NCBI RefSeq assembly: GCF_029227915.1
Contig: NC_079875.1
Span: 4,216,001-4,280,000 of the forward strand
Direction of reading: 5' to 3'
From: Hydractinia symbiolongicarpus
Taxonomy: Eukaryota > Cnidaria > Hydrozoa > Anthoathecata > Hydractiniidae
Length of the DNA: 64,000 nt
Part shown: positions 783-52,400 of the stretch, in pieces
How positions within the stretch are numbered: position 1 is the stretch's first letter
Layout of the letters: each line of letters starts with the position of its first letter
Notes under the pieces: model-generated
What the model was told of the DNA's origin: nothing
The model's input: only the letters and a program-made list of their open reading frames with translations
Database searches by the model: none
Made by a program: the position numbers and the translations under genes

Positions 783-3455
783 TGATGTTATCTTTCAGTA
801 ACCAATACAATAGTATTAGAGACCAGTGAAGCCTTCAAGTTACCTCATCAAGGTCAGAATCATTTAACAGCAGCAACTGGAGTAAAAACCATTACTGACA
901 GATTGGACAAAATATATTTAAAAGATGAGAATCAAACTGCTTACCTAGCTTGTGAAACCTTTGAAAGATTTAAGCAGCCACCTAAGACGAGTATGAATGA
1001 CTATCTTATAGAGTTTGAACGGTTATACCATAAGATCCAAGGACATCATATGGTACTTCCTGATGGGGTGTTGGCATATAAAGTTCTACAAAGTGCCAAC
1101 AATAGAAGAATAAATCCACGCGATCAATCTGGAAGTCCTGCAAGATGCAATATTTGCCAATCTATATATCACTGGGCTTCAAACTGTCCACACTCTTATG
1201 AGAACCAGGAGCCTGAGGATGTTAGAAAAGATGATAGTCATTCAAAGGTTACGTTTTTTGCAAAAATCAGAGAAGATGAAATGCAATCTCTGGTAGGTGA
1301 AACCCTACCATGTGCAGTTTTAGACTGTGGTTGCACAAAGAGCATTTGTGGTAATAATTGGTATCAATGTTTTATTGATAATCTTGAAAATGATAAATTG
1401 CCTGAAGAGCATCCCAGCCAAATAAGGTTTAAATTTGGAGATAGTGAAGCAGTTTGTTCTATGAAAAAAGTGTTCTTACCTGTAATTATTGGCTCAAAAG
1501 AAGTTTATCTGGAGACGGAAATTGTCCCAAACGAAATTCCTTTGTTGCTGAGTCAAGCTTCCATGAAAAAAGCAAAGGGAGTTTTAGATTTTAGCAACGA
1601 TTCGGTTACAATGTTTGGAGAATACCATCCTTTAAATTTACCACCACAGGTAACTATTGCATACCTTTGAACAACAACACAATAGAGATGGATGAAAAGA
1701 GACATGACCACTTGTTACCCCAGGTTGCCTTTGTTTGTGCAAGTACAAAATCAAGAAAAAGTAAGATTATTAAACTTCATCGTCAATTTTGCTATCCAAG
1801 TGCTGAAAAATTAAAATCTCTCATCAAAGCATCAAATTCCTTCTTAAATGACCAAAGTGAAGTTATGAAAGTCATGAAATTGTGAAGTGTGCATCAGATA
1901 CAGAAGACCGCATCCTATTGTTGGCTTACCAATGTCATCGTAATTTAACCAATGTGTAGCTCTAGATCTTGTGCAACTTTCGCAATCATTATGGTTTATC
2001 CATATCATAGATGTTTTTACCAGATTTTCATCAGCAAAATTGACATAGACGAAAGACAAAGATGTAATAACAGATATTATTTTTTAAATTTGGTTAGCCA
2101 GATTTGGTCAACCAAGTTTCTAGCTGATAATGGTGAAGAATTTGTCAACAAAGTGATAAAGAAATGTGTGAGGAGTTTAACATAGAGTTTTCGACAACTG
2201 CAGCTGAAAGTCCTTGGTCAAATGGACTATGTGAATGACACAATGGTATGATTAAGGAAATGCTGAAAAAAATATTGAAGACACAAAATGTACACACAAT
2301 CGCGCACTATTCTGGGCTGTAAGTGCAAAGAATTCTTTTTCAAACAACAAGGGATTCTCACCGAATCAACTTGTTTATGGTAAAAATCATGACACTATCC
2401 CTGCATCCGCACTGATCATAGAATTTGAGAATAAGCAAGTCCTTGTAAAACATGGTGGAAGTTATGTTAGAGTAGACATGTGTCGCTTGCAAAAGTTTGA
2501 CCAAGTTTTGCATTCACAAAAACCTTCACAAGACACGGAAAGAAGTACTGAAGTGACAACTACACAAGTGAACAATTGCATTCCACTTGAACGCGATGAT
2601 GCTTTTGGTGAATGTGTTGGTGCAGATGATGTTTTTGGTGAATGTGTTGGTGCAGATGATTTTGACAGTAACAATGCAAAAGAACCAGAAAATGCAAAAA
2701 CAACAAATTTACAAACAACGAAAGAAACAACATCAGACAGTGCCTCAATGAATGAAATAACAAGACACAAGATCAAAATGTTAGCAATTTGTCAACAGTC
2801 CAAGGAATACCAAAGTTGAAGACAAAATCATTTACAAGCTAACTCCCAACAGTGAATGGACAAGGGGATTAGTCCACAGCAGAGCGGGAAAAGTGAGCAG
2901 AAAAGGAAAAGAAGGCAGACAGTATGGTAGCTGTTTAAATGTCCGTTAGATCAAAAGATGCGTGAGTGACTGGCAACCTGTTGTTGAGACAAACGAAACT
3001 GAAGAACAAAGTTTTCTCCACCATAGAAAATAAGGGTCCATCTGTAATATCCACAAGATGGGTGGTCACAACAAAGAATATAGAGGGATACAAAACAGTT
3101 AAAGCTTGTTTGGTCATAAGAGGTTTCGAAGAAGAAGAGGTCAAAAATCTAACTAAGGACTCCCCAACTTTTTCAAAAGAAAGTCTCTGCATTGTGCTTA
3201 CAATGTTAGCAACCTACGAATGGGAACGTCACACCTTAGATGTCAAGACAGCATTTCTTCAAGGCAACCAGATTGACAGAAAGGTTATCATAAAGCCCCC
3301 AAAGGAAGCAAATACAACAGGTGTGTTTTAGAAACTAAATAAAGCTGTATACGGCCTTGCTGATGCTTCAAGAGCTTGGTATATACGTGTGAAGGAAGAA
3401 CTAATCGGCTTGAGGTTGAGAATGTCTTTATTTGATAAAGCATTATATAAGTGTG
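783..3455 (+). pseudogene. Copia gag-pol remnant: gag knuckle, protease, integrase, RT
   Basis: Domains run in normal Copia order. Gag has a CCHC zinc knuckle (C-x2-C-x4-H-x4-C) at about 1146-1187. The aspartic protease has an altered active site, LDCGCTKS in place of the usual D-S/T-G, at about 1318-1345. A pre-integrase segment (LHRQFCYPSAEKL) lies near 1776. Integrase pieces include FLADNGEEFVN (about 2120) and ESPWSNGLCE followed by a stop (about 2200-2235). The RT N-terminal half includes RWVVTTKN, LDVKTAFLQGN and KAVYGLADASRAWY, with a stop between at about 3329. Homology ends abruptly near 3455 before the YxDD motif. Several stops and frameshifts show an inactive copy. The acidic linker has a 30-bp direct duplication near 2596-2660. 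Confidence 0.85.
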
Positions 3456-23102: not shown

Positions 23103-24684
23103 TCATGCATACATTTTGCATTTAGCTGCAAATCCGACTAAACAAGCTTGGCATTTGTTTGTCTCTTTCAAAAAAAAAACCAATGACTCTAATGTTGATG
23201 GAGGACTTATGTGAATAATATTAGATATATTTGGAGCATCAACACCCATACCTAGAGCAGTTGTAGCAAATACTACTCTAATTCGTGAATCTGACTTCTT
23301 TAACTCCTTCAATATATCCTCTTTCATTTGTGTAGTACAAGAAGCATAAAACTGTGCAAACAATCTTGCTCTAGGACAAATATTGTCACCAACATAATGA
23401 TTTCTTATAACATTTTCAAATAATTTGTACCCATACCCACAATATCTTAAATGCATGTAAATTATTGTCATGGGATAGTGTTCTCTTTGCACGTTTAATT
23501 TTTCAGCCAACGGTTTGAGAATAACTTCAAATCCTTTCAAACCCAAGTTAGAGTTTGGGCGTCTTTGTATGTTTAAATACACATTTTTTCGATTTGGCGA
23601 TACAGCAATGACTTTATACATAATAAGGGTGAGCGATTTAATCAAATATTCTACAGTGTCTGGTGTAGCAGTAGCGGTTAGAGCCAATGTAACAGCATCT
23701 GGGAAAAGTGCCTTTAACGTAGACAACTCGCTAAAATTTTTCGGAAATCCTCACCCCTATAAATCAAATAAAGCACATTAAAAGTTTATATTTTTTGAAG
23801 ATACACATTATATATAATATATGTTATTATGTAGCAATATACAAAGTTTTAAATTTATGAATTTACTTGAACGGCATAGTTTTATTTATAATATATAGTA
23901 TGTATGTATGTAGTTTTAAGTAGAGAGAGAAAAAATATTTTGTTTATAATAATTAAAAATACACACTGGAAGCTTGAGTTCACCATTGACAAAGTCAGGG
24001 TAGGCGAATTGATTCGTGAAGTGGAGACAACATCCAAAATAAAGTTTTACATTGTCGCATAACAAACATTTTAAAATTCGTTTCTGGCATAAAAGTGTTC
24101 GCCAGCCCTGTCTTTTTTTTAAAAAAAACACAAAAAAAATGATTCACTGGAGTGTTTTTACTTACCACATGCTTAGCTACACAATGTGCTTCATCTATAA
24201 CACAACTGACAACATTTTCTTGGTAAACAGAACTTTTTAGCAATTCTCGTCCTCTGACACTAAGCAGAGATTCTGGGTGAGCAAATACTAGTTTTAATTC
24301 GCCATTGTTAATTGAAATTGGTATTTCAGGCTCACCATTCTCATCACACGAAAACAATTTTTCAGGCACAACTGTTAGCTCCAAATGAAGCACCCCAGCA
24401 CCAGTACCTCTCACTTCTAAAACTTTCAACTGGTCCTCTATGATAGAATTAAGAGGGCACACCACCAATACTATATTTTGGACACTCTTTCTTGGCAAAA
24501 AGTCTGCCAACAAATGAAACAACAAGGATTTCCCAAATCCAGTAGGTAAAACACCAATAACATCATATCCATTTAAAAGATGCTCAAAACATTTAACTTG
24601 CTGTGGCTTTAAGATAATATTATTTATGTTATTAATTAAAAAAGTTTGTTGCAATCTACAAAATAATTGCAATATCTTGTCCAT
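23103..24684 (-). pseudogene. RecQ-like superfamily-2 helicase carried by the transposon
   Basis: The first exon (24684-24166) has the Q-motif-like LKPQQVKCFEHLL, Walker A GVLPTGFGKSLLFH and Walker B/motif II VIDEAHCVAKH, ending at donor GTAAGT. A downstream exon (about 23758-23103) has motif III ALTATATPDTVEYL, motif V-like VVFATTALGMGVDAPNI and a degenerate end where the arginine-finger motif (QxxGRAGRD) should be. A one-base shift near 23735 breaks the frame after EDFR. ATP-driven 3'-5' unwinding is known for RecQ. Here the helicase is likely dead, but its placement between the TIRs indicates that the parent transposon carried it. Confidence 0.8.
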
Positions 24685-25109
24685 TTTGAAAAACGGAACC
24701 CTTTTAACACTTTAACTCGCCGTTCACTTTTTGAAATAATTTTAAGTTCTTAGTTTTACCCCATATATGGATGTCACATATCCATATAAAGAACTGTCGA
24801 CATTTAGCAAAAGTGCTGACGCTGCAGTCTACACCCAAGATTTCTGGGTGTAGAAAGCGGCCGGGTCCAGGGCCTTCTTCTTCGCGCCATCCCCGATATC
24901 AAAAAAGCGAAAAGAGGTCCTGGGGACGAGGTTGACCTTAATCTAAAGGGATCATTAAAACACTACAGAAAAAAGTATTATTTAATGAGCAAGAAAAAAA
25001 ACGGTGTTCAAATGTGTTACTAAAACGAAGCACGAAAGAAATTGAGGAATAGGAAAAATTTAGGGGTCCATCAATCCAATGCAATTTGTTGGGTGATGCA
25101 GGTATTAAC

Positions 25110-32558: not shown

Positions 32559-33042
32559 CCTTATCGGTTAAAATTTCTTCGGTCAAAATTTTCGTTGGTT
32601 ATAAAATTTCGCCGGTGAAAAGTGACGAAATACTTCTGAAATTTTGTCACTTCTAACCGACGAAAATTTTTAACCCCCTTTCAGAAGAAAACAGTTTGTT
32701 AGTTTTTCGACTTATATTTGACAAAACAAATACTTATCAATAATAATAAAGTGTTTTTTTCTTCATTTTCAACACATTTTTTCGCTTTCTTCGAGAGAAA
32801 ACTTACTTATTTATTTTGAAATTTTAGTTTTCTAACACCTCATTTTTATGGCTTCAAATATGACTTTAAAAGGGTCTGTCGACTTCAAACACGAATAAAA
32901 ACACGTAAAATAAAAAATTCAATTTTGGTGAAAAATTTCGTCAGTCAAAATTTTTCGTCGGTTATAAAATTTTGTCGGTCAAAACATTTTGTTGGTTATA
33001 AAATTTCGCCGGTTAAAAGTGACGAAATTTTAACCGATAAGG
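32559..33042. mobile_element. 484-bp MITE with CCTTATCGG ends, TA flanked
   Basis: The inverted ends CCTTATCGGTTAAAATTTC are flanked by TA (32557-32558 and 33043-33044). The subterminal parts are built from repeated motifs such as GTTATAAAATTTCGCCGG and AAAAGTGACGAAAT. The end sequence and TA target are shared with the larger HIRAN+DDE element at 34834-37372. It has no coding capacity. Confidence 0.75.
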
Positions 33043-34037: not shown

Positions 34038-34833
34038 GTAGGCTAATAACATTGTTTCATTTCATGATCTGTTCTCACTCAATCAAAAATTACAAAATTT
34101 AGTTTTTTAGATTGTATTCCTTAAAGTATGAGAAATTTGATGGTCGAAGAATTTTGTTTGTTCTATCATTAAACCCAAGGATAGCAATCCTTTAGTTTGA
34201 CAAGTACGTTCATGCACCTTAAATATTGCTATCGAGAATTGTATGTATAGGTTGATCTGTGTTTTTTTGTTTGCTTGTTTGTTTCTTTGTTTGTTTTAAT
34301 TCTTGTTTTGTGACATTACTGATGTTATTCTTGTTGCGTTAAAGTCGGAAGTAATAATCAAGCTCTTCCGTAATCAACCCTTTGTCTTCTGGTTTTTTTT
34401 TTTTTCGCTATTAAGAATACCCTTTTTTGAAGTTCTTTTTATTTTTTTCACATGCTTAGATATTGTTCTTTTTCTGTTCTTATTTTTTAAGCATTTCTTT
34501 ATTCATTCAACAGGACGTTAAAATATTTGTGATGTGAAATTTTTGTACAATACTACCTTCAGATATATATTTTTCCATGCATTTTGTTTTGTTTTTCTGG
34601 AATATTCATCCTTGCTGTTCCTATGTGTCATTGTTCCTATAACAATGCAATACAAGTGTAAGCTAAAATTAGACAAACATTTTACTAACAAATCATTGAA
34701 TTTTTTTTCATTGAATATGCGTTATATACCTATTTTCCCTATGTTTTGTTGTAAAAGTTTATTTTGCGTCGACAATAAATTCAAACACGAGGTCATTACA
34801 ACACAACTGCTTTTTGATCTGAAACTCAACTTA
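34038..34833. other. AT-rich spacer with no supported gene
   Basis: Two Phe-rich open frames (34303-34521 and 34534-34845) come from T-rich sequence, and the second runs into the transposon end. No motif supports coding. Confidence 0.5.
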
Positions 34834-35019
34834 CCTTATCGGTAAAAAAAAAGTCGGTGTAAAAAAAAGTCGGCAAAAAATTTAGTCGGCAAAAAAGTTA
34901 GTCACTTAGCAAAAATTAGTCACTTTTTACCGGTTAATTTTTTTAATATTGGTCACTTAATGCCGACTTTTTTGACACAGCTGAATTAAAAGAGAACAAA
35001 GATTTTACAACAATCTAAT

Positions 35020-35743
35020 CTATTTCAATAACATCTTTATTAATGATTTTATCAATAATATTTTGGACATCTCCCGGCTCCTTCGCATTATCTTCTTCTT
35101 CATTTTCATCATTTTTCTCTTCTTCAACACTCCCTTCTGCCTTATCGTTGTTAATAACAATATCAATTTCGTCGTCGTCACTCTCGCCGTCGTCATCACT
35201 CCGTCGTTTTTTTTGTCTTCCTTCTCGCCAGTGTAATCATAGTCGTATAGGTTGTTGATAAAGTCTTTCATTAGAAAAAAAATTCTGTCTTCTTTCACTG
35301 TAAAAGTAAGTAGAAGCGGTACTTCAAGTCCTCCTGCAGGGATCGGGGACACTTTGTAGTTGGTGGAGAGCAATTGACCAGAAATACTTCCACCTTCTTT
35401 GATGAAATAAAAACAGTGGCGTGAAATTTCCCTTGGAATGTGCCCAACAGTCATCCAAGAAATTATTCTTTATTTTAATGGCACATGCATAAGGATCACA
35501 TTCTTTGGACGATTTGTTAGTCTCAATTTGTACTTGGACTTTTTGACCTGCTTCAGCATTTTTCCACGTTGTGTTCTTGTAAACATGATAACCTCTGGCT
35601 GCAATCTTTCTGTCGAATGAAGGCATATTTCTACGAACATGAATCAACGAACTTGCCTTGTGAAAAAAATGAGTGCAAAAAAAACACGTTCGAACATTCG
35701 AATGCTTTCGAAATCTATCGTGACATAATAAGTTGCTCTCCAC
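35020..35743 (-). pseudogene. HIRAN-domain protein of the transposon, frameshifted
   Basis: The likely start is ATG at 35626 (MPSFDRKIAARGYHVYKN). The core motifs are VGHIPREISRHCFYFIKEGG and SPIPAGGLEVPLLLTF, typical of the HIRAN domain known from HLTF/Rad5, where it binds DNA 3' ends. A single-base shift at about 35450 separates the N-terminal part from the GHIPRE motif. A second shift near 35225 hides a strongly acidic C-terminal tail (DDDGESDDDEIDI in another frame). No helicase or RING domain follows, so it is a stand-alone HIRAN protein. The role in transposition is inference. Confidence 0.75.
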
Positions 35744-35870
35744 CTTTGTTGTTACGTTATAAAAACAAAAGAGACAATCAAGGAGCGAAGGAGGGACTTA
35801 AATCAAATTATGTAACTTTTCTGTTTCATCACTTTATCAATCAAAACATTGATAAAAAAGAATAGCAACA

Positions 35871-36736
35871 ATGGCTAAAGTACGAGATTTGAGAGATTTT
35901 TATAAATCTTCATCGAGAAGCTGTAATGGGAAATCTCCTGAGAAAGTACCAACGTTTTTAACTTCTGCATCTGGCACTGTTAATGGAGCAGAAATCAACG
36001 CGATTAATAAAGAGATGAAAGCGTTTGTTCAACCAAAAACCAAAAAGAAATACTCATCAGTTCCAAGCAACATAAAGAATAAAGTTGGAGAATACGCTCT
36101 TTTGAATCGTACCAAATCAGCACTGGAGAAATTCAAGAAAAAGTATCCAAAATATACTTTCTTCCGAACGTCAGTGAATAATTGGAAAAAAAAGATTCAG
36201 AAGAACAAAAATCACTCTGTTTCATCTACTGTACACGAGAAGAAAGGTAGGCCAAACCTCTTACCAGACGAACTTATGCTTAAAGTGAGAGATGTGATAA
36301 CTGGAGTACGTCTGGCTGGAGGTGCTATTTCAAGAAAAAATGGTCATAGCAATTGGTAATGGAGTCGTCAAGGCAAACTGTCCAGAATTCTTGCAGAGTT
36401 ATAATAGTGCCCCACAACCTAACAAATAAGTTTCAACCACTGGATATAACCTTGAACAAGTCAGCAAAATTGTTCATTTCCAATTGTTACAATGAATGGT
36501 TTTCTCATCAAGTTTCCCAGCAGTTGGAGAAAGGCATAAGACCTGCAGATATTAAAGTGTCGCTTAATCTAACCGAATTAAAGGTGATGCATGCTAAATG
36601 GATTTCAAAACTTTATGAATTCTTATGTGCTCAAGATAAAATGATATTAAATGGCTTCAAAGCTGCTGGTATAACAGAAGCAGTGGAATCTGCTAATGCT
36701 GTCTTGGAAAGAATTAAAAACCCTTTTCGTTGTTAA
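35871..36736 (+). pseudogene. Jerky/pogo-like DDE transposase, internally deleted
   Basis: The N-terminal part (35871-36359) has a basic, Ser-rich leader and HTH-type segments: KVGEYALLNRTKSALEKFKK, VNNWKKKIQK, then LPDELMLKVRDVITGVRLAG. Frames shift near 36355. The C-terminal part (about 36390-36736) has VPHNLTNKFQPLDI and NEWFSHQVSQQLEKG, the usual end of the DDE_1 domain, finishing at TAA 36736. The middle, with the first catalytic aspartates, is deleted around 36400. It is divergent from the HIRAN gene. Confidence 0.75.
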
Positions 36737-37374
36737 AATATTTACTTATTTTTCTCTGCTATTTGTATGAACAGTTTGTTGTTGTTGATTATGTTGTTTT
36801 TGATGTTTATATTACAAAGATACCATTGTTAGCATTAAATTAAACAGTAGGAATTCAAAAGAACTTCTTTAATTTTCTTTCTCCTTTACCAGGTTTGGTT
36901 TTACAGGATAATTATACACTAACTCTGTGAAAAAGCTCTCCACCAAATAAGGTCATAAATAATTGAACCAATCATTAACCGAGAAATTATTTGCTTTTAT
37001 CATCTCACGTGGGTTTAAGAGAAAGCTATTGGTTCAATTGGTTCAAACTTAGTGTATACAAAGACATAATATAGCGGAGCTCCGCTATTTGGTGTATACT
37101 CCGTATAATATTGCGGATGAGGCTTCATAAAACGACAAAGTCTAAATTTGATTAGAATCCCTGGAATTACTTTGGAAAGTCAAAAAACTAAAAAATTGGA
37201 GGTTAAAAAGTAATTCAAAAAATCGGCAAATATTACTAGTCGGTAAAAAAAAAGTCGGTAAAAATTTTCGGTCGGCAAAAAAAAAGGTCGGTAAAAAAAT
37301 TGGTTGGTAAAAAATTTAGTCACCTAGCCAAAATTTGGTCACTTTTTGCCGACTTTTTTTTTACCGATAAGGTA

Positions 37375-39489
37375 AATGAATTCTTTTTGATTTTTAGATT
37401 TTTCTTATCTTCTTTTTTTTCTTCACGTTTTGTTTCGCATTATGCACATATTTCATCTAAGCTTTACTAGCTAATGTTCTTTGATGTCATATCAAACAAG
37501 TAACTTCTAACAAGGGTTTACAAAAACAAAACGAAAAAATTATCGGAAGAAAATTGACGTTTTACAATATAATATATCGTGCTATCGTCGCTTCCAATGG
37601 TAATTTAAATATCTTGATTCTTTTGCTCTCCCTCTTTGTCGTTTCCAACAAGCTCTTAGCAGCAATTAAAAGCATAAAAATTACTGTGGTGAAGGTGCAA
37701 GGCTAGTCTTCCATTTATTTTTGTTTACTGTTTTCCCTCCATACTTATTCTGTTCTTCTTTTCAATGTACATCTGTATCCATTTATTCGTTATCCTTACT
37801 TTTTCCAAATCTTCTGTTTCCTTTAACCATTGTTGTTTAATTCTTTTTTGTTCTGTATTTACTTTCAGACATTCAATGCCATTATGGTAATAATTATGTC
37901 TCGTTCTAAGTATTGCACACTACCAATTGATAAGATCTACCAACGTACAAGTTTGAACCTTTAATCACATGTCATTATCGAGTTATTGCAGATTTAGGAT
38001 ACTGGTTTGTAAAATATTGAATTTTTTACTTTGCTGACTGTAAAATTGCTTACATCATCAATTTCCACTTAGGGGCGATTCCAAAAATGCCACCATGGTT
38101 TTTTGCATATTTACCACCTAATGAATCCATTTCAATCGAAAGTTTGCTTCTAGCAAGTCTATGCACACGGGATGGCAAGTTGACCCCCACTATTATTCTT
38201 GTTTCACTGTTGTTCTAAACAATAAACTTATTGTTTTTAGCCTGAAATTCTAGCCTGGTATTTTTATAAAAGAAAAAACCTGTAGCACATGTTTACGGCT
38301 ATTCATGGAAACAAGGTAATTCATCCTTTATCAACATCAATGTGTATGTCCTTAAATTTATCAGAGGACTCGTCATCTCTGTCATTGACGTAAGGGTTTT
38401 TGAGTGGGATGTCATCAACTTACGACTCTCCACATTTATACAGATGGGACTATGCCAGCTAAAGAAAATATTATTCTTGTTATTAAGACAAACAAAGAGT
38501 GGACAGGGTGAAAAATTGGTGAATTAACGCAAACACAACGACTTACTGTTCTCCAATTTGCCCTAAACCAGGATTTGAAATACTGAATTTCGAGAGAATT
38601 TGATTTTGCGAATAACGAAATTGACAAAAATTCGTGAAAACACATTTTCGTGAATTTATTCTATTAAGGGTAAACACAGATTAATTTTGACGATGTTTTA
38701 AAGTAATGTACAAATCAAACGTTAATCGCAAACTGTTGATCCTCTTCTCAGCAACAACTAGATTCTAGTATGAATGAACATTGAAATATTAGATGCGTTT
38801 AATAACAAAACAAAGAGATTACCATCATCTTTGTTATTCTTTTGGTAAGAGTTTAAATTTCGTTGGAGGTTTTGATTTTTTTGCTCAACAAGCGTGTTGC
38901 AGTGGAAAGTGCTGAAACAGGAAGTGTGATATTTACTATTCTTTAGAAGTTTCTTATAGTACATATTTTCTGTATGATTTTATAGCTAAAGTTACTTATG
39001 TAAAATCCTTCTCCTGCCGATATGTTAAGATTACAAAGGAATATATGCATATCTTCTGAAGATTCAAAATCAACGTGAGAAAAAAGAGTAACCATTCGTA
39101 CATAAACAAAGACAGAACGAAAGTTATACGAGCGTATAAAAGAATATTCTTCCAGCCAAAATTCTGAGGTGGAAAAACATATTGACCATTGTGAACGTTT
39201 GTTCATCAACTCCATCCTTTCAAACGACGTCGATATGGTACAAGTCGAATTTAATTTAGCACAAGACGAGACACGAGATATGGACACCTCGAAAACACTT
39301 ATTTAAAGAGACTTATATAAAAAGAGACCAATTCTTAATAACGGGATCAAAGCATCGAGAAAATTACACTGTATATAAACTACACTTTTAGACTTGTCAT
39401 TTTACCGTGTCTTTATAATAATTTAGTAAATAAATCAAAATATCGACTTTTATTTAATTGTGTACTCTTCTTTTTGACTTTGTTTTTAA
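37375..39489. other. Intergenic, no gene seen
   Basis: AT-rich. Short open frames at 38342-38527 (+) and 38436-38645, 38758-38964 and 38943-39287 (-) lack motifs. A small TTTCGTGAATTT-rich repeat fragment lies at 38580-38660. Confidence 0.45.
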
Positions 39490-43429: not shown

Positions 43430-46400
43430 TCATTTCAGATATTTGAGTTCTGCTTCACTTAACGAAATCTGCTGTGTTTTCGCTATTCCACGAATGATAG
43501 CCTAAAAGAAACTAAATTTTATTACCAGTATAGCTCTGCCTCTTACACAAAATGGTACCGCAAGTAAGGAGACGCACGTAAGGCGGTATAAAACGGGTGA
43601 ATCCGTGCAACTAGTAAGGGTATGTTTATGGCTACGGAAAATTTACACATTCGAAGCTGCCTGTAAAAAAGCTACTCTTATATAATTTCCTGAAGCTGGG
43701 GCAATCCATCCGTTTCGGAACGGAAGGGGTTTATGATGTCATCTTTGTAACCGTTCATGAAAACCACATTATTCTGCACATTTTGTTAGTCAGATATAGA
43801 AGACGCGTTTAAAGAGATGAAAATCAAACTGTTACATTGTAACCTTAGTAACCTTTTTCGGCAACGATGATGCTATAATGGCTGACTCACAGCTTGCTCC
43901 TGAAAAGAATCTTAAATGACACTGGCCGATCTCTGTTCTCTTTTACGCGCCAACAGCCTTGAGACTTTTCTGTGCATTTTAGAATCATTTACTAAACACT
44001 TGACACTTCCCGTTTTTATTTCGCATTCCTCGACCAAAGAAATTAAAATATGAAAATACAATTAACTAAATGTTTATCGATTATTTAAAATAGTTTGGCA
44101 TAAAAAAACTGGTAACAAGTAACTTGAACAGTACGTATCTACGACTAATGTGGAAAGGATGGTTAACGTAAAATACAGGCCAATAAGCGTCCGTATCGAA
44201 TGTGCATTGCGTGCATATAAAATATGTACTGAGTGTAGCGAATTTAAATCGAGTGTATATCGAATGCGCAACAAGCGTGTATTGAATGTGTATCGAGTGC
44301 ACATCTGATGTGTACCAAATGCGCAACGAGTGCTTTTTAAATGTGCATTAAGTACGTAGCGAATGTTTATCGAATGTGCATTAAGTACGTAGCGAACGTT
44401 TATCGAATGAGCAACGAGTGCGTATTGAATGTGCATCAAGTACGCAACAAGCTCGTATCTGATATGTATCGAATGCGCAACGAGTTCGTATCTGATATGT
44501 ATGGAGTGCGCAACGAGTTCGTATCTGATATGTATCGAGTACGCAACGAGTTCGTATCTGATATGTATCGGGTGCGCAACGAGTGCGTATTGCATGTGTA
44601 TCAAATGCGTTGACAATTTCTTAGCAGGCAAACAGACAATTAACTTGAAATGGGTACCTCGGGTAACCAAACTTCGGAGACGTACGTGATCGGATTAAAG
44701 CTACTTTCTGGAAATTCTTTCTGATACCACGTGACCAGCATGCGTAGAAGGTCGTCAGACTAAAAACAAAGAGGTAATTTTACTGAGGAATTGCTTTCAC
44801 AATCGAGTGGAAGATGAAAAATATCTTTTTTTAATACTGACGAGATAAGTAAAGACTATTTGTTAGGTACTGCTTTCGACTTCGACGTCGCGTCACAACT
44901 AAAATGTGAGCATTTATTCAGCTAGTTTGACATTAAGCTTGCTAAATTTTACACCAATTACGTAAAGTGAATATGCCGAGCATGGTAGCAACATTAGCCA
45001 ATTTTTTTGCGTTAAGCTCATAGCAAAAATAATTTATTTTGAATCGTCTAAATCGTCCTTGACAAAATACCTAAATCGACTTGAAAAATGCCTGAGTTGA
45101 TTTTTTTTTGCAAGCTCCAAAAACACAATTCCCGAAATTTTAGTTTTTACACTCGTCCCGGAGGAGAGGAGTGTATTGGTTTCGGCTTGTGCGACCAAAA
45201 GTGACATGCGATCTGACCGAATATCGTAACTTACCCGCTCCCCCGCGCCATAATTCTTTTTTTTTTCCGCGACCCTATTTCCCGCTTCTTATCATGTTGT
45301 GCGTGTCTTAACCCGTAGTTTGCAGACCACAGACCAGTCGTTTATGCATCGCTACCGCTGAAGTCGAAGCATGCGCACTGCCCGCTGAGAATCGAAGCAC
45401 TCTTAGCTGTGTTTTCACATTTCTACGAAATTTTTCTAAAAATTAGTAGCGGAATATAAATGAAGTATCGCTGGAATATTTATCTTGCTTTCATGCAATC
45501 TGCTATCTTGCTAGACTTACTGACCTACTGTTGTTGTACAAAGTGTGCCTAGTGTGTTGTTGTTCTGCAAAGTCTGCCTTCACTCACTGAAATTTAAAAC
45601 TGCTAGATCGAGAAGACTTTCAATACCTGGGGAAGCTGCTTTAGGTACCAAGGTACGTCGTGCTGAATATTATTCATCATTCCATTGACTTAGTGTATTA
45701 TTTTATTTCATGTAACTAGCTAATTATGTTTTTCTGCCATGTTTTTACGATATCTTCTTTCTTGCACAAACTTCTATTATTATTGTGCGGGGATATTGAA
45801 TCTAATCCAGGTCCGGCTTACCATATTAAATCAGTTAATGGGTCATTTAATCAAGGCGACAAAAAGTTTGGTGAAACTGCTGGTATTCAGTGTATGTGCA
45901 ATGCTCTTCTAGCTATATGTTGGTCCCAACTCAAAAGAATTTCTTTTTTAATATCATTTGATTTAGTCATTTGATTTAGATAACATCTTAGAACATGGTG
46001 ATGCTAATTTTAAGCAGTCAAATTTCAACAGACCCTTGGCATGTTATGAGTTACCAACATCAATATTGATCGTTTTCAAATTGCTATAAGTTTCCTGAGT
46101 ATTACGTCAGCTCTTTTGGGTGATGAACATTACTTCTTAGCTCATGGACAAATGAATTCAGAAACAGTTCATTGTGTTTTCGAAAGCATATATTGGTTCA
46201 TAATGTTCATGATAATCCTGGGGTCAGTTCTGTTTCACTTCGCAAACTGTCCTTTTCATCTGATGTTCTTAATGTCATTGTTATTTACAGAAAAGTTAAC
46301 AGTCATCTGCAGACATTTTACAACATGCTGTCAAGGAAAATTGCAAGTTCTGGGTAAGCCATATCAATTATTTCGTAATAAAGTTTCCGACGAATGACCC

Positions 46401-49400
46401 TATCTTGGCTAGAAAATATTTAGTTCATATTTACACTAAGATAAGCTTCATTTTTTTTTCATTGTTTTGCAATAATGAACCTCAAAAGTATTTTGTTGTT
46501 ATTTAAACCTATAAACTGCTGAAACGATACTTTTTCTTGTTTTGAAAATTGTTTGTTCTCATTCATAGCTTTTCTCTAATGCTTGTCATTTGCTACAACA
46601 GTCACGCGAGTGCAACTGAAGACTACACAGATCGTATGCAGCCTTTATATTCGTCTGAACCATCACGTGAGCATTAATCCATCAGGTAATCTAGAAATCG
46701 CATTACGTTCTATGCTGGGGCATATACGATGCACATGGCGACATGCCTAATCTTATAATGAAAAAGAACGCATTACGTTCCATGCTGGGACATATACGAT
46801 TCACATGCAGACTTGCCTAATCTTATAATGGAAAGAAAACGCATTATGTTCTATGCTGGGACATATACGATTGACTTGCAGAATGTTATAGAACAATCTT
46901 GTGGAGCAGGTTGCTACTTCGTGAAAACGTCAGCGGAACAATGTTTGTATTAATTTTTTATGTATTAATGCATTATTCGAAACAATATTTATGACTCAAA
47001 ATTATTTGCGTACTAATCATGAAATTTATAATCGATTTGTGAAACCATGGGTAAATCTCTCTACGCGGATAAGTTTTCAAGTCTTGTGATTGGTTGATGC
47101 AATAAGTTACTCGCTTAATTATTTCTATTTCCTAATCCATGACACATTGGTGTGAGAAAGTTTCGGGTATGCGCATTTTGTTTTGAAATTTCTCAAATCA
47201 TTTTTCTTTCGAAAATCTCGATCACGATGTGTCGTGAAAACAACGCATTGAAACGTTCTCAGCCTTAGGAAAGTGTAGCGCGAAGACAGCGGTGATGTAT
47301 GGATAGTCGCCTCGGGGAAACGTAGTGTGAGACAGTTATGTGTGGATAGTCACGTGTTACGGAGACGTGAGACCGTGCTTAACGAACCGCACAGCTGCGA
47401 AGCCGGTTCATGGGTATTTGAACGCGCGCTCTGAGCAATCTGAGGATATTGCGCAATATATATGATCGTCCGTCCGATGAACAAAACTTTTCACTTGGTA
47501 GTTGAACCCGCCCCCGCTGAACTACGGCCGTAAAGCTATATGTCCATTTAGCGATTTTGTCGCTATTTCGCAAAATATAAGTAATAGAATACTCATGAAC
47601 ATGCACATATACAGAAACGACGAGTGTTTTAAACCGTCAAGGTTTCTTGTTTTTATTTAATTTGCAATTTTAATTTATTTCAGACCAACTTATTAAGACA
47701 AGGAAGCTTTAAATTGGACAGAAAATTTACTGTTAAAAACTACAAAAGAAAAAACAAAAACATCCCCTTTTTTTAATTTTCCAAAAGTTTCGCGAATAAG
47801 TCATTTCGCCCACCCAAATCTTCGCAATATTGATGAAATTTGCAAAAATTATTCAAAGGTACAATAAAAAAAATGACGTCGATAGTGATGAGGATGAAGA
47901 CAATGACACATACTAATCATCACATCATCTGATCATCCAACGTAATTTGAAACACATCCAATTTATAATAAGCAAAAAACTTCTCACCTGGTCTTCATCA
48001 AGTGGTCCGAACCCGGATGACCATTTTAACCGATCTTTTTCTTTTTGTGTTCCTTTAATAAATGTTGAATGTCTGTTAGAAGTTTGCTCACCACGTGTAA
48101 CAGCGAAAAGAAATGGCTGAAAAATAATTAGTTTTACAGCTGGCAACATCATGTCCATTTTAGGTCGCACATAAACTGTCGGCCTTATGTTACACACGGA
48201 GCCTATTTTTACAAGAATAACGTTAAAAAGGATGTATCCGTCTAGCTTGTTCCATACTAAATTTTTAGGTCGTACTATACTCAATAAAAATTAGTTCAAA
48301 TGAGCTTTCGCAAAAAAAAAAGATGGTCATATTAAAATGATCTACATTTGACTCATTTACAAACTTTCTCCATCTGCATAACATATTTTCGTGTAAGCCT
48401 CTAAGATCAAAATTAGCAATCTTTTATTTCTATTGTTGAAATCATACCTTGCTGGACTGTTTCACCCACTCCAACAGTTGTTTATTACAAGAACTAAACA
48501 AATATAAAATAAAATATTCAGATAATTTTTGTGTTTGTTTTGTAAACTGAATCAAAATAAAATAATAAGAACATGAACAAACAAAAACAAAAAACATACT
48601 CAGTGAGAACTCTGGACATTATATTAGTGGAAATACCTTGTTGGCCCTTATTACGCTAGCCCTGATTTAACACAAGCCCCTTTAACGTGGGCCCGTATTT
48701 CGTCAAGGCGGAATTTTGCGTTCCCGCTATTAAGAGCCGCATTTAACACCACAACAATTCATCTACATCAATTATAATATTTTTTTTGTTCGACGTTATC
48801 TTAAAGGTCTTTATCAACTGCATCATCTTGTGTTTCGGTATTATAACAAATTCTTCCGTCCTCTTTGAGATACGCTTACATGGATAATTAAAATGTAACA
48901 GTAGCTTGATCTCTGATCCGCCTTCGGAAATGGGAGAGACACTGCGCCTCCCTCGTGCAAAAAAAGTGAACAAATCGAGAAATCTCGCGTGAAATATGAC
49001 CAACTGTCACTGCACCAAATTCTGTCGAAAAGTGTTATTGTTACCGCACAGCAATACGGATTCAATTGAAGAGAAATTGCGTTTGTGTCTGTTGCCACAA
49101 AAACTGTTCGATTTACATATATTCTGTTCCAAAGCTTCTGTACGAGAGTGAGGGATTGGAAATTAAATACGAAAAGTTTTGTAACGAAAACTTAGCAACA
49201 ACTGCTATGTCTTCTTACCTGCTATGTCACCATAAGCTATGTCACCATAAGAGTAAGCTATTTTTAGTATCAGAAGAACTGATGACGAAAATCAAACAAG
49301 TTCTGACACATCTACGAGTAGCTGGTTGTACAACTTCTATGAAAGTTGTGATATCAATTGGAAATGGTGTGCTTTCTTCAACCTGTTCAGAAAAATGGTC

Positions 49401-52400
49401 AGAAATGGTGGAAAGTTAACTATTACAATTAAATGCAAGAGACATTCCCAAAATAATAAATTGGGTTAAACGGCGGGGTACAACTGCGAAAAAATCAACG
49501 AATTCTGCTCTGTATGACGACTTGGCTTTCACAGGGAAGAAAAAGATAGCAGAAAAAGCCTTCCAACACAAAGATCCTGTCATCAACTTCGATTAAACGC
49601 CTCTTTAGTCGCATGTCTTGCAAAAACCACTTTCCCAGAGAAAAACGCGGAAACTGTACCAATTGGGAATTTAAATAATAAACGTCAAATTAATAGAACA
49701 TCTGCTATTAAACTCTCTGGAGAGTTTTTGCTGATCCACTTAATATATACAGGGGAAACTAACAGTTATCATCTGAAAGTTAATTTTCTCAAAGGTGTCG
49801 ATATAAGTCATTCTGTGAACTACCAGGGAAATTCTAAACAACATATGTCCTTTTATTCGGAAGCCTTGCTTATTTTTAATGTGTTTAGAGGTAAAAAAAA
49901 CCTGAAATCAATGAGGCTTTAGAAAAGAATGATTGTCTTGTCCAACATGTACCTAATGACCATACAAAATTATTTCAACTTAATCAACAAAAGCGTAAAA
50001 TGTTTCATTTTAAAAAATACCATAAGAAGTTTTCAGTAAAATGGAAAAGAGTATCTATAATGTACTACCCTAATGTTAAGCACTATAATGTCCAGCTAAC
50101 CCCGGTGAAACCAATCCATTGTACTATATGCAGTTGGTTCGAGAGTTAAGTCCAGATTCCAAAAGGCTCTTATTTCTATAGCAGCCAAAGAAGCTGAAGC
50201 ACTTACAAACTTATGCGAAAACCCGGTAAAGGAAATTGAAAGCGGATAAAGCATAATTTTTCTCATTCATATCATAAACATGCTCATGAAAAAGCATTAG
50301 GGTAGTAAAAAAAAAAAACGCGTAAAAAATTTGAAGATAACGCCGGTCAGAGCAAATTTCTTTTAAAAAACCGACCCTTATTACGACAAAGGGTGGAAAA
50401 TAACGCCATTAAGGTAGTCGTTTGAGTGGAAAACAGCATCAACTTAGCAAGTACTAACTATGAGTTCGGCAGTGGTGGAGACCAAGTAAATAATGCTAAA
50501 AATTCGCTACTTTCTTCATACATTTCTCTACTTTCGGTTTAGAAATTTTTACACAATGTCATTTGTGGTAGAAAACATTAGTTAACTAGCGAGCACACTC
50601 AGCTAAGTTCTCTTTACTTTAGTTTGGTACCACGCTGGCTGTTCGACTTTGTTTTAAATACTACCATTTTTAAAAATATATCAAAAATTTGCATAATTAT
50701 GTGTAATTACGTGATTATGCGCGAAATTTAAGCATCGTTTTTTCTAACAGCTAAAATAAATTATGAAGGGCGTGCCGGACTCTTTTCTCTTTTATGATAA
50801 GTATTTTAGCAGTAAAAGAAGTAGAAAAGAAAAAAATTAGGCCGACTAGTGTATATTGACAAGTACGGTGTGTGTGTTACTTAGATAGAAACAGCTCAAT
50901 TGCTTATGATAATGATCTGCATAATTCCGCACACTTTTTGAGTAGTATGTATATTCTAGCTATGTTTCGTCAATTAGTATTACCTTGCGTTTCTTCTCGA
51001 TCTGTGGTTCGAATCATACGACATGATAGCTTTTATTGGACTCATTTGTGTCGATTTAATCTCTAAATACAAATATTTCTGTTTAAGCAAGTAAGCTCAA
51101 ATGCCTTGTTATACAGAATTTGCATATTTTTTTCTAAAACTAATTTTGGCCTTTCCTGGCTTTTAGACGCAAACTCAAAACATCCTTGACTAGTAGAGTG
51201 AAAAAAAGAATGTAAGTGTTACTTTAAAAGATTGGAAGTAATAGCTTCACCACAATAAAATGGATCACGTTTTATACACCAACATCAGTTAATGGAAAAC
51301 AGAGGCAGGCCATGATATAAGTTAATGATGAATGCACAGAACAACAACTCCCCCTCGAACAACATTTTCTGGTATAATTCTACTGTATTGACACGTCCCA
51401 AGGACAAAATTTAAAGGTAGCTTATGACATTTTAGTCCAGATAATAAAGCTTCGACGTGAATACCTTGTGAAACATCTTCGGATTCATTATTTTTAGCTT
51501 CGTCCAAGTCATTTTCACTCTTCTGCTCCTGATTATCACCCTCTTCATCCTCATCTTTATCATCCTCTTCTTCGTCAACGGCGTAAAAGAAATCTGTAAT
51601 TTTTCCCAATGCTAAATAAATGAAGAAGATTTTTGAAAGTTACACGCCTTACCATAACAAAATTCATTCCATTGAGGAGGAAAAAAAGCGAACGAACGAT
51701 CAAACAAACGCAACGAACATAAATACCGCGCTTCGTTAAATAATCACCACATTTCTCCATTCCATAGTTAAAATCAGATTCGGATTCACCAGCCTTCTAT
51801 AAAAAATTTAACAAATTTTTGATATTGTTCAACAAAAATTTAAATATTGAAAATATTGCCACTCATCTATCGACAGTCTTCAGCAGTTAGCTAGTTCGAA
51901 AAGACTGAAAAGAAGAGAATAGATTTAGAATAATTCATATCCAGGAGTCTTCCAAGCCCCCACCATATTTGCACCGTTCCACGTCCACTCATATTTGCAC
52001 AGTTGTAAGGTTTTTTTATTAGGAGTTCCCAAAAGTAGTGACCATCCTGTATATATAAAAACGAACTTACAATGAACTCATCCCGTTCCTCGCATGTGTA
52101 TGATTTTAACTTTGAAAGAGAAATTTTATATCTAAAAGAAATAAAATTGATCATTTATGTACTAATCTTCAAATGCAAAGTTTGTAATGTAAAAATATGT
52201 GAAAATAAAAAATGTTTAAAATTTAACAACTTTTTTTATTGTTGGGTTCTTAGGAGTGAAAAAATTGAGAAACTCTAACAAACTGGAACTTTAAAATAAT
52301 ATAAAAACTAGTATATGGGTTCTCATGCTTTTCAGATAAAAAACAAGAACACCCTTGCGGTTTTAACACTCGTTCCGAGTAGAATCTATGCAAGACAAAT

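Follow-up and report, generated by a model that had tools for sequence, protein, structure and literature searches.

A pogo-superfamily transposon of Hydractinia with a conserved, divergent HIRAN gene

A transposase and repair factors of the host are considered sufficient for most cut-and-paste elements of animals. Why such an element should keep a second gene is a question raised by a window of 64,000 nucleotides from the hydrozoan Hydractinia symbiolongicarpus (assembly GCF_029227915.1, contig NC_079875.1, positions 4,216,001 to 4,280,000 of the forward strand; window coordinates are used below), in which a transposon at 34834-37372 carries a gene for a stand-alone HIRAN-type protein, a domain of HLTF/Rad5, divergent from its transposase gene. 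The anatomy of these elements, with a conserved second gene whose product is predicted to have a HIRAN fold, we regard as nearly certain; the role of the protein, which may concern replication or repair, is proposed below with less confidence.

The window element and its relatives in the genome

The element at 34834-37372 is a DDE transposon copy bounded by terminal inverted repeats (TIRs) with TA on either side. Its inverted arms (34831-34857 and 37349-37375, 27 nt) are 100% complementary and correspond to TA plus a 24-bp TIR, confirming the inverted ends and flanking TA described in the initial annotation. Inverted-repeat and TIR-pattern searches place the left TIR, with the CCTTATCGG end, at 34834-34857 (+) and the right TIR at 37349-37372 (-), and the sequence and arm comparison give the TA target-site duplication at 34832-34833 and 37373-37374. 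With up to 3 mismatches the TIR pattern occurs 3 times in the window, one of them an internal repeat with 3 mismatches, against 0.00 expected in the shuffled window sequence. Subterminal repeats of family D1 (GTCGG plus A-run units) were located by repeat analysis at 34844-34903 (+), and those of the right side lie at 37229-37321 (+).

The two start codons, 35626 (-) for HIRAN and 35871 (+) for the transposase, are separated by 244 bp (35627-35870), presumably a shared promoter; the divergent arrangement and the distance of about 245 bp noted earlier were thus correct. Both genes are damaged, HIRAN by two frame changes and the transposase by a core deletion. The HIRAN gene (all on the minus strand) is left as an N-terminal part including the start codon (35450-35626, 95% to residues 1-59 of the HIRAN protein P0001), a second part of the core (35227-35460, 96% to residues 59-136) and a tail end whose frame is shifted against the core (35018-35077, 95% to residues 184-203). 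The transposase, on the plus strand, retains an N-terminal part (35871-36338, 69% to residues 1-143 of the transposase P0121), with VRDLRDFYK, resembling a PCNA-interacting protein (PIP) box, near the start, and a C-terminal part (36383-36736, 84% to residues 362-477) with the third catalytic D, assigned by eye. Relative to the copy L029, 610 bp of the DDE core are missing at 36384, and the remainder of the element is 97.5-98.9% identical. A Pfam search of the broken pieces in the window copy found neither HIRAN nor DDE_1. What the window holds is best explained as a damaged Hydractinia transposon of the pogo superfamily that originally had two genes.

In the 481-Mb assembly, where the window lies on contig C1, L029 (contig C7) has the same TIRs and TA, enclosing two open frames, of 206 aa for HIRAN and of 491 aa for the transposase, and L030, L031, L034, L037 and L038 are TIR-to-TIR copies with both genes, some broken. 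Two of the outcomes that the initial annotation named as refuting, a HIRAN gene lying outside the TIRs or confined to this copy, were not observed: the gene recurs genome-wide inside them. L029 contains both open reading frames (ORFs); gene-less TIR-bounded short derivatives exist as well. An exact search of the genome for the 26-mer TACCTTATCGGTAAAAAAAAAGTCGG gave 13 forward and 13 reverse occurrences and none for the pattern read backwards; some of the occurrences belong to short gene-less derivatives. L044 is a gene-less internal-deletion derivative of 638 bp, and L041 and L043 are gene-less, with end-to-end spans of 282 and 367 bp as judged from 9-bp ends. A 484-bp non-autonomous element with CCTTATCGG ends also sits 1.8 kb upstream of the main element (32559-33042, 19/19 terminal bases inverted, TA on both sides); its interior gave no blastn match to the main element.

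The 'Jerky/pogo-like' label given earlier to the transposase stands at the level of the pogo superfamily, supported by DDE_1, TA and short TIRs. DDE_1 (PF03184, cut-off 22 bits) scored 27.1 bits in L029, 28.9 in L049, 132.6 in L012, 34.3 in L024, 33.8 in L051 and 39.8 in L056, and a TIR pair with flanking TA was present at 22 of the 26 loci tested, although at L017 and L026 only an inner TA fitted; no such pair was found at L032, L035, L049 and L055. HTH_Tnp_Tc5 was found in L012 and L056, and in the window's lineage (L029, L049) no Pfam HTH reached its cut-off. DD35D spacing was counted by eye in P0123 and L014. Passer (DD35D) is described with a single ORF in the available part of its report (PMC9976928), whereas the intact copies here carry a second, divergent HIRAN gene; the window's lineage is therefore, on a comparison by description only, not filed as Passer. 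Similarly, L012 shares HTH_Tnp_Tc5 plus DDE_1, TA and short CAGTGGAATCCC TIRs with Tigger, but for most complete Tigger elements only one ORF is reported (PMC9219625, available part), and L012, whose HIRAN gene is divergently coupled, is therefore called Tigger-like.

Linkage and co-divergence of the two genes

To count linkage, pieces were merged to loci, and a gene within 3 kb was considered a neighbour. Since the HIRAN searches scored the best 150 of 442 and 150 of 251 candidates, and the transposase searches the best 89 of 867 (P0121 query) and 81 of 944 (Tigger-type), locus counts are lower bounds, ratios refer to the listed loci and some loci scored as lacking a neighbour may be misses. 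There were at least 93 transposase matches with P0121 and at least 150 HIRAN matches with P0001. Of the 91 loci of one HIRAN search, 59 went into the count directly; the remaining 32, namely C14:18503408, 22 loci of the 222-aa class and 9 of the 236-aa class, were covered by the P0001 search.

In the window's (CCTTA) lineage, 68 of the 82 listed transposase loci had a HIRAN gene within 3 kb, all 68 divergent and 19-1392 bp apart. Of the 77 listed Tigger-type transposase loci, 30 had a divergent HIRAN neighbour, one a tandem neighbour and 46 none. The 192-aa HIRAN class belongs to the Tigger-like element L012 (TIR CAGTGGAATCCC, TA), where the start codons are 5 bp apart. The tandem case (C12:8533480-8535021) is a 532-aa Tigger transposase lying 1.7 kb from the HIRAN gene of the neighbouring element L012; the remaining 532-aa loci and the 408-aa loci belong to the 46. 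The 189-aa HIRAN class, read at a single locus (L056), marks a third pogo element, with TIR CCGTCATTC, TA, and HTH_Tnp_Tc5 plus DDE_1 in a broken transposase. The HIRAN/transposase pair thus lies inside TIRs and recurs in three pogo lineages, the third at one locus. That a transposon and a HIRAN gene of the host came to lie together by chance was rejected, because about 0.5 neighbours were expected and 98 divergent and one tandem were counted among 159 loci. Of the 195 listed HIRAN loci, 97 had no listed transposase within 3 kb; among these 97 are the HLTF-type gene of the host and the third lineage, for whose transposase no search was made. Separately, the Tigger-type families of 532 and 408 aa, without a HIRAN gene of their own among the listed matches, form a natural comparison set.

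Such a layout might also be expected if the HIRAN protein acted outside the transposition reaction and instead regulated silencing or the intergenic promoter that the two genes would share. The divergent starts, 244 bp apart in the window and only 5 bp in L012, are in favor of this; however, a HIRAN fold with fork-type motifs would be odd for such a regulator and L012 leaves almost no intergenic DNA to act upon, so that we consider this explanation very improbable.

An open 222-aa HIRAN frame is present in 19 of the 19 listed open copies of the 540-aa transposase family, which has near-identical open copies, and in the 236-aa family the L024 and L026 copies, on C6 and C15, are 100% identical over 3,349 bp, indicating that the elements moved recently, both genes included. 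Comparison of 60 with 55 proteins gave 4 HIRAN/transposase pairs on outside contigs identical in size (at least 10 kb), with 0.012 expected, and these pairs are likely from other species. A further case of contig sharing, between P0054 and P0123 at a length of 3,605, was not counted, since their identities are too unlike and contigs this short can agree in length by chance; only contigs of at least 10 kb entered the count. Relatives sought in viral contigs and prokaryote genomes were not found.

When the identities between ten subfamilies were compared, those of HIRAN (22-63%) and of the transposase (15-58%) rose and fell in parallel (Mantel r 0.894, a value reached in 0 of 20,000 permutations), and the correlation persisted in the eight subfamilies of the CCTTA lineage alone (r 0.853, 17 of 20,000 permutations as high). 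Between subfamilies, to which the selection estimates apply, synonymous sites are saturated or nearly so, the proportion of nonsynonymous differences (pN) of HIRAN is 0.26-0.47 in nine pairs, and the ratio of nonsynonymous to synonymous rates (dN/dS) is 0.18 in the sole pair with a finite dS. HIRAN therefore co-diverges with the transposase and is kept by selection.

These results bear on the simplest alternative, that HIRAN is a host gene carried along by chance and without function for the element. The host does have a HIRAN gene of its own, L001, and HIRAN is broken in 2 of the 4 open-transposase copies of the window's family. However, occurrence in three pogo lineages in one orientation and the open HIRAN frame of all 19 open copies of the 540-aa family are not expected of cargo, and co-divergence together with purifying selection contradicts it; hitch-hiking was therefore rejected as extremely improbable.

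Fold, pocket and tail of the HIRAN protein

The identification of the protein as HIRAN, made initially from the sequence alone, is supported by fold comparison of P0001 and by Pfam in the sister families, although the Pfam score of the window's own family stays under the cut-off. Against the PF08797 cut-off of 24.7 bits, the intact copy L029 scored 13.9 and P0001 16.8, whereas P0040, a 61% relative of the window's HIRAN, scored 27.1, L014 and P0241 32.5 each, and L012 34.1. The proteins of L049 and L056 gave no Pfam HIRAN match and match P0001 at E 1.9e-13 and 2.9e-8. P0001 shows a HIRAN fold in the fold comparison, which we take to override its sub-cut-off Pfam score, and the models of both families examined have the HLTF/Rad5 HIRAN fold. 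Sequence searches of the PDB with the L012 HIRAN, the L029 transposase and a tail peptide returned nothing useful. P0241 is encoded identically in L014 and is named LOC130657458 of Hydractinia symbiolongicarpus. In the subfamily of L049 (2376-3131) the HIRAN protein is extended at its N-terminus by a cysteine-rich region that looks zinc-binding (CxxC...CxxC) and gave no Pfam match above cut-off. The best-scoring HIRAN match of the genome, L001, is of the host HLTF type (VVGIRYYRGQ... NNKYDRNAIRV) and is encoded exon by exon. The transposon proteins differ from HLTF/Rad5 in standing alone, without SNF2 helicase or RING, and from HLTF in their common RG(Y/F)HxY...W and G(L/M)E signature, which is absent from HLTF.

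The HIRAN domain of HLTF prefers 3' ends. According to the available part of the HLTF report, its pocket includes Y72, N90/N91 and Y93 and accommodates a single-stranded dinucleotide, and the double mutant NN90,91AA is the fully impairing one (PMC4666394). In alignments of 81 proteins of the P0241 family, the equivalent of N91 is kept in 80 and that of Y72 in 67, Y93 is replaced by F in 75, and N90 is variable. D94, which we take to be a further pocket residue of HLTF, is kept in 78. Judged by alignment, the HLTF pocket residues are thus partly kept in this sister family, unlike in the window's own family, where the pocket is altered and the pocket D is kept in 74 of 82.

A pocket of this kind suggests another possibility, that HIRAN binds the ends of the element itself, the excised 3'-OH or the TIR tips, as a subunit of the transpososome without any link to replication. 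The dinucleotide taken up by the HLTF pocket (PMC4666394, available part), the 3'-OH of excised transposon ends and the co-divergence of HIRAN and transposase, as of interacting partners, would all suit it. Since it leaves unexplained both the related Tigger families without HIRAN and the conserved PIP-like and SUMO-interacting-motif-like (SIM-like) stretches of the tail, we consider it unlikely but not negligible.

Beyond the fold the protein is predicted to be disordered. The commonest residue of a position has a mean share of 0.74 in the core of the P0241 family and of 0.31 in its tail. Against this background K175-D-I-R-x-F-F181 is conserved (56, 72, 75, 66, -, 58 and 70 of 81), as is a C-terminal I-x-I-D (52, -, 53 and 61 of 81), the other conserved tail positions being a few lysines and one proline. 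Motifs were counted in proteins with a long enough tail, 68 of 120 in the window's family and 94 of 120 in the P0241 family, and were compared with shuffled tails, using 1,000 shuffles for the 94 tails of the latter; the shuffles in both families ignore the relatedness of the sequences. In these 94 tails a strict PIP occurred in 22 (0.10 shuffled, maximum 2), the DIRxFF type, defined after inspection of the tails, in 72 (0.06, maximum 2), and a SIM-type core in the last 12 residues in 54 (5.5, maximum 14). In the window's family the SIM-type core was found in 35 of 68 tails by a wider pattern, likewise defined after inspection (6.9 shuffled, maximum 14), and in 15 of 68 by a narrower one (0.66, maximum 6). 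PIP boxes are not claimed for the HIRAN tails of this family.

Some families have the PIP-like motif in the tail of HIRAN, others at a terminus of the transposase. In the window's family RDLRDFYK opens the transposase, and at least 11 listed relatives carry it, misses being uncounted; the transposase of the Tigger-like L012 ends in QSSIKDYFK. By eye, a fair PIP-like motif is present on one or the other partner in 6 of the 10 subfamilies (W, A, C, F, G, D), and only weak versions were seen in E and B (DIRVMF, DIRDML), M (QKVCFQFF) and Z (ALFKYF). The pogo transposase itself reportedly binds PCNA, and ZRANB3 is said to have a very similar PIP box; a full-text literature search did not find 'pogo transposase' together with PCNA. 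The protein-protein role that the initial annotation ascribed to the acidic tail is therefore supported in part, by the conserved tail motifs of the sister family.

A possible link to replication and repair

That the two genes evolved together suggests that these transposons bring their own link to the replication or repair machinery of the cell. We propose that the HIRAN protein, encoded divergently from the transposase across a short intergenic stretch, may act as an accessory factor of transposition. Through its HIRAN domain and the PIP-like and SIM-like motifs, it would recruit the transposase complex, or the DNA of the donor or target site, both to exposed 3' ends and to PCNA, which might carry SUMO, at forks or at gaps under repair, so that transposition would use replicating DNA or be coupled to gap repair. 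From the sequence evidence, we give an accessory factor that leads to 3' ends or PCNA about an even chance, and a mechanism through replication or PCNA ranges from there down to somewhat unlikely, depending on how strictly it is worded. The general form, in which animal pogo-superfamily transposons carry a dedicated replication-targeting module with HIRAN for 3' ends and PIP and SIM, shared out between the partners, for (SUMO-)PCNA, is doubtful.

Several observations weigh against the proposal. HIRAN is not universal in pogo: 14 of the 82 listed CCTTA loci and 46 of the 77 Tigger-type loci have none within 3 kb, and these loci, together with the single-ORF Passer (PMC9976928) and Tigger (PMC9219625) as described in the available parts of those reports, indicate that the chemistry of the transposase does not need it. 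Among full-length copies of the window's family with an open transposase, HIRAN is open in L029 and L032 and broken in L030 and L031. In the pocket of this family the equivalent of Y72 is V in 71 of 82 and the NN is absent, and in the P0241 family N90 is variable, though NN90,91AA fully impaired HLTF (PMC4666394, available part). Strict PIP was found in 0 of the 68 tails of the window's family, relaxed PIP was not enriched (11 of 68; shuffle mean 6.9, maximum 14), and the PIP-like motif that this family does have lacks the Q and lies at the N-terminus of the transposase.

The same domains would equally serve a protein that acts after excision or against the host. It could promote gap filling or sister-templated repair at the donor site, which would raise copy number, or could block an HLTF/Rad5-type response by competing for 3' ends and PCNA; the host owns an HLTF-type gene with a HIRAN domain (L001) that might be so opposed. 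We rate this possibility as unlikely, on a level with binding of the element's own ends.

For the proposed accessory role, the nearest transposon model is perhaps TnsE of Tn7, which recognises recessed 3' ends and the sliding clamp and, as an accessory protein, steers transposition towards replicating DNA. The likeness is in idea only: TnsE belongs to a bacterial multi-protein system, no homology is claimed, and the function here is inferred. The combination of a PIP-like motif and a SIM in a C-terminal tail with a disordered linker resembles the C-terminus of Srs2 in the available text (PMC10127746), but Srs2 is a host helicase with a tandem PIP-like box plus SIM, and the motifs described here belong to a HIRAN protein encoded by a transposon, their binding being putative. 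Extra non-transposase genes are known from other DNA transposons, KolobokP and the ciliate TBE and Tec elements, the latter with extra ORFs according to a survey of Tc1/mariner (PMC7325037); in the descriptions consulted, the extra genes of KolobokP and of the ciliate elements are for an endonuclease, a zinc-finger protein, a recombinase or unknown products, and HIRAN is not among them. Surveys of pogo elements report one or two transposase-encoding ORFs (PMC7386202, available part). HIRAN and pogo were not found together in a full-text search of 5.39 million papers, which did not extend to Repbase/Dfam; the 15 listed of 47 papers naming at least two of HIRAN, Tigger and pogo were all without HIRAN, and the 13 with 'HIRAN domain' and transposon, judged by title and start of abstract, held nothing on a eukaryotic transposon. 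HIRAN and 'DNA transposons' occurred together in one paper, which concerns a fungus.

Elsewhere in the window, a second, degenerate HIRAN relic (48845-49131, -, 32-44% to P0001) lies divergent to a transposase relic (49264-49952, +, 36% to P0121 over 49264-49907), and no TIR pair was found around them at 48.8-50.0 kb. By eye, open frames at 23106-24711 (-) resemble a RecQ-type helicase (PTGFGKSLLFH) and those at 786-2816 (+) integrase-like retroelement remains, both as candidates, and a 206-codon open frame at 44077-44694 (-) opens with a short tandem repeat, the units listed being HIRYELVA.

A selected second gene in several pogo lineages, with a fork-remodelling domain and clamp-binding-type motifs, would offer a handle on how such elements exploit replication or repair to become more numerous. 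Many proteins annotated in invertebrates as stand-alone 'HIRAN', LOC130657458 among them, may accordingly be products of transposon genes and not of host repair genes. If a replication-targeting module does exist, it would explain why pogo lineages have repeatedly retained the HIRAN gene, and cut-and-paste transposition in these elements would be replication-coupled, a eukaryotic counterpart in principle to TnsE of Tn7.
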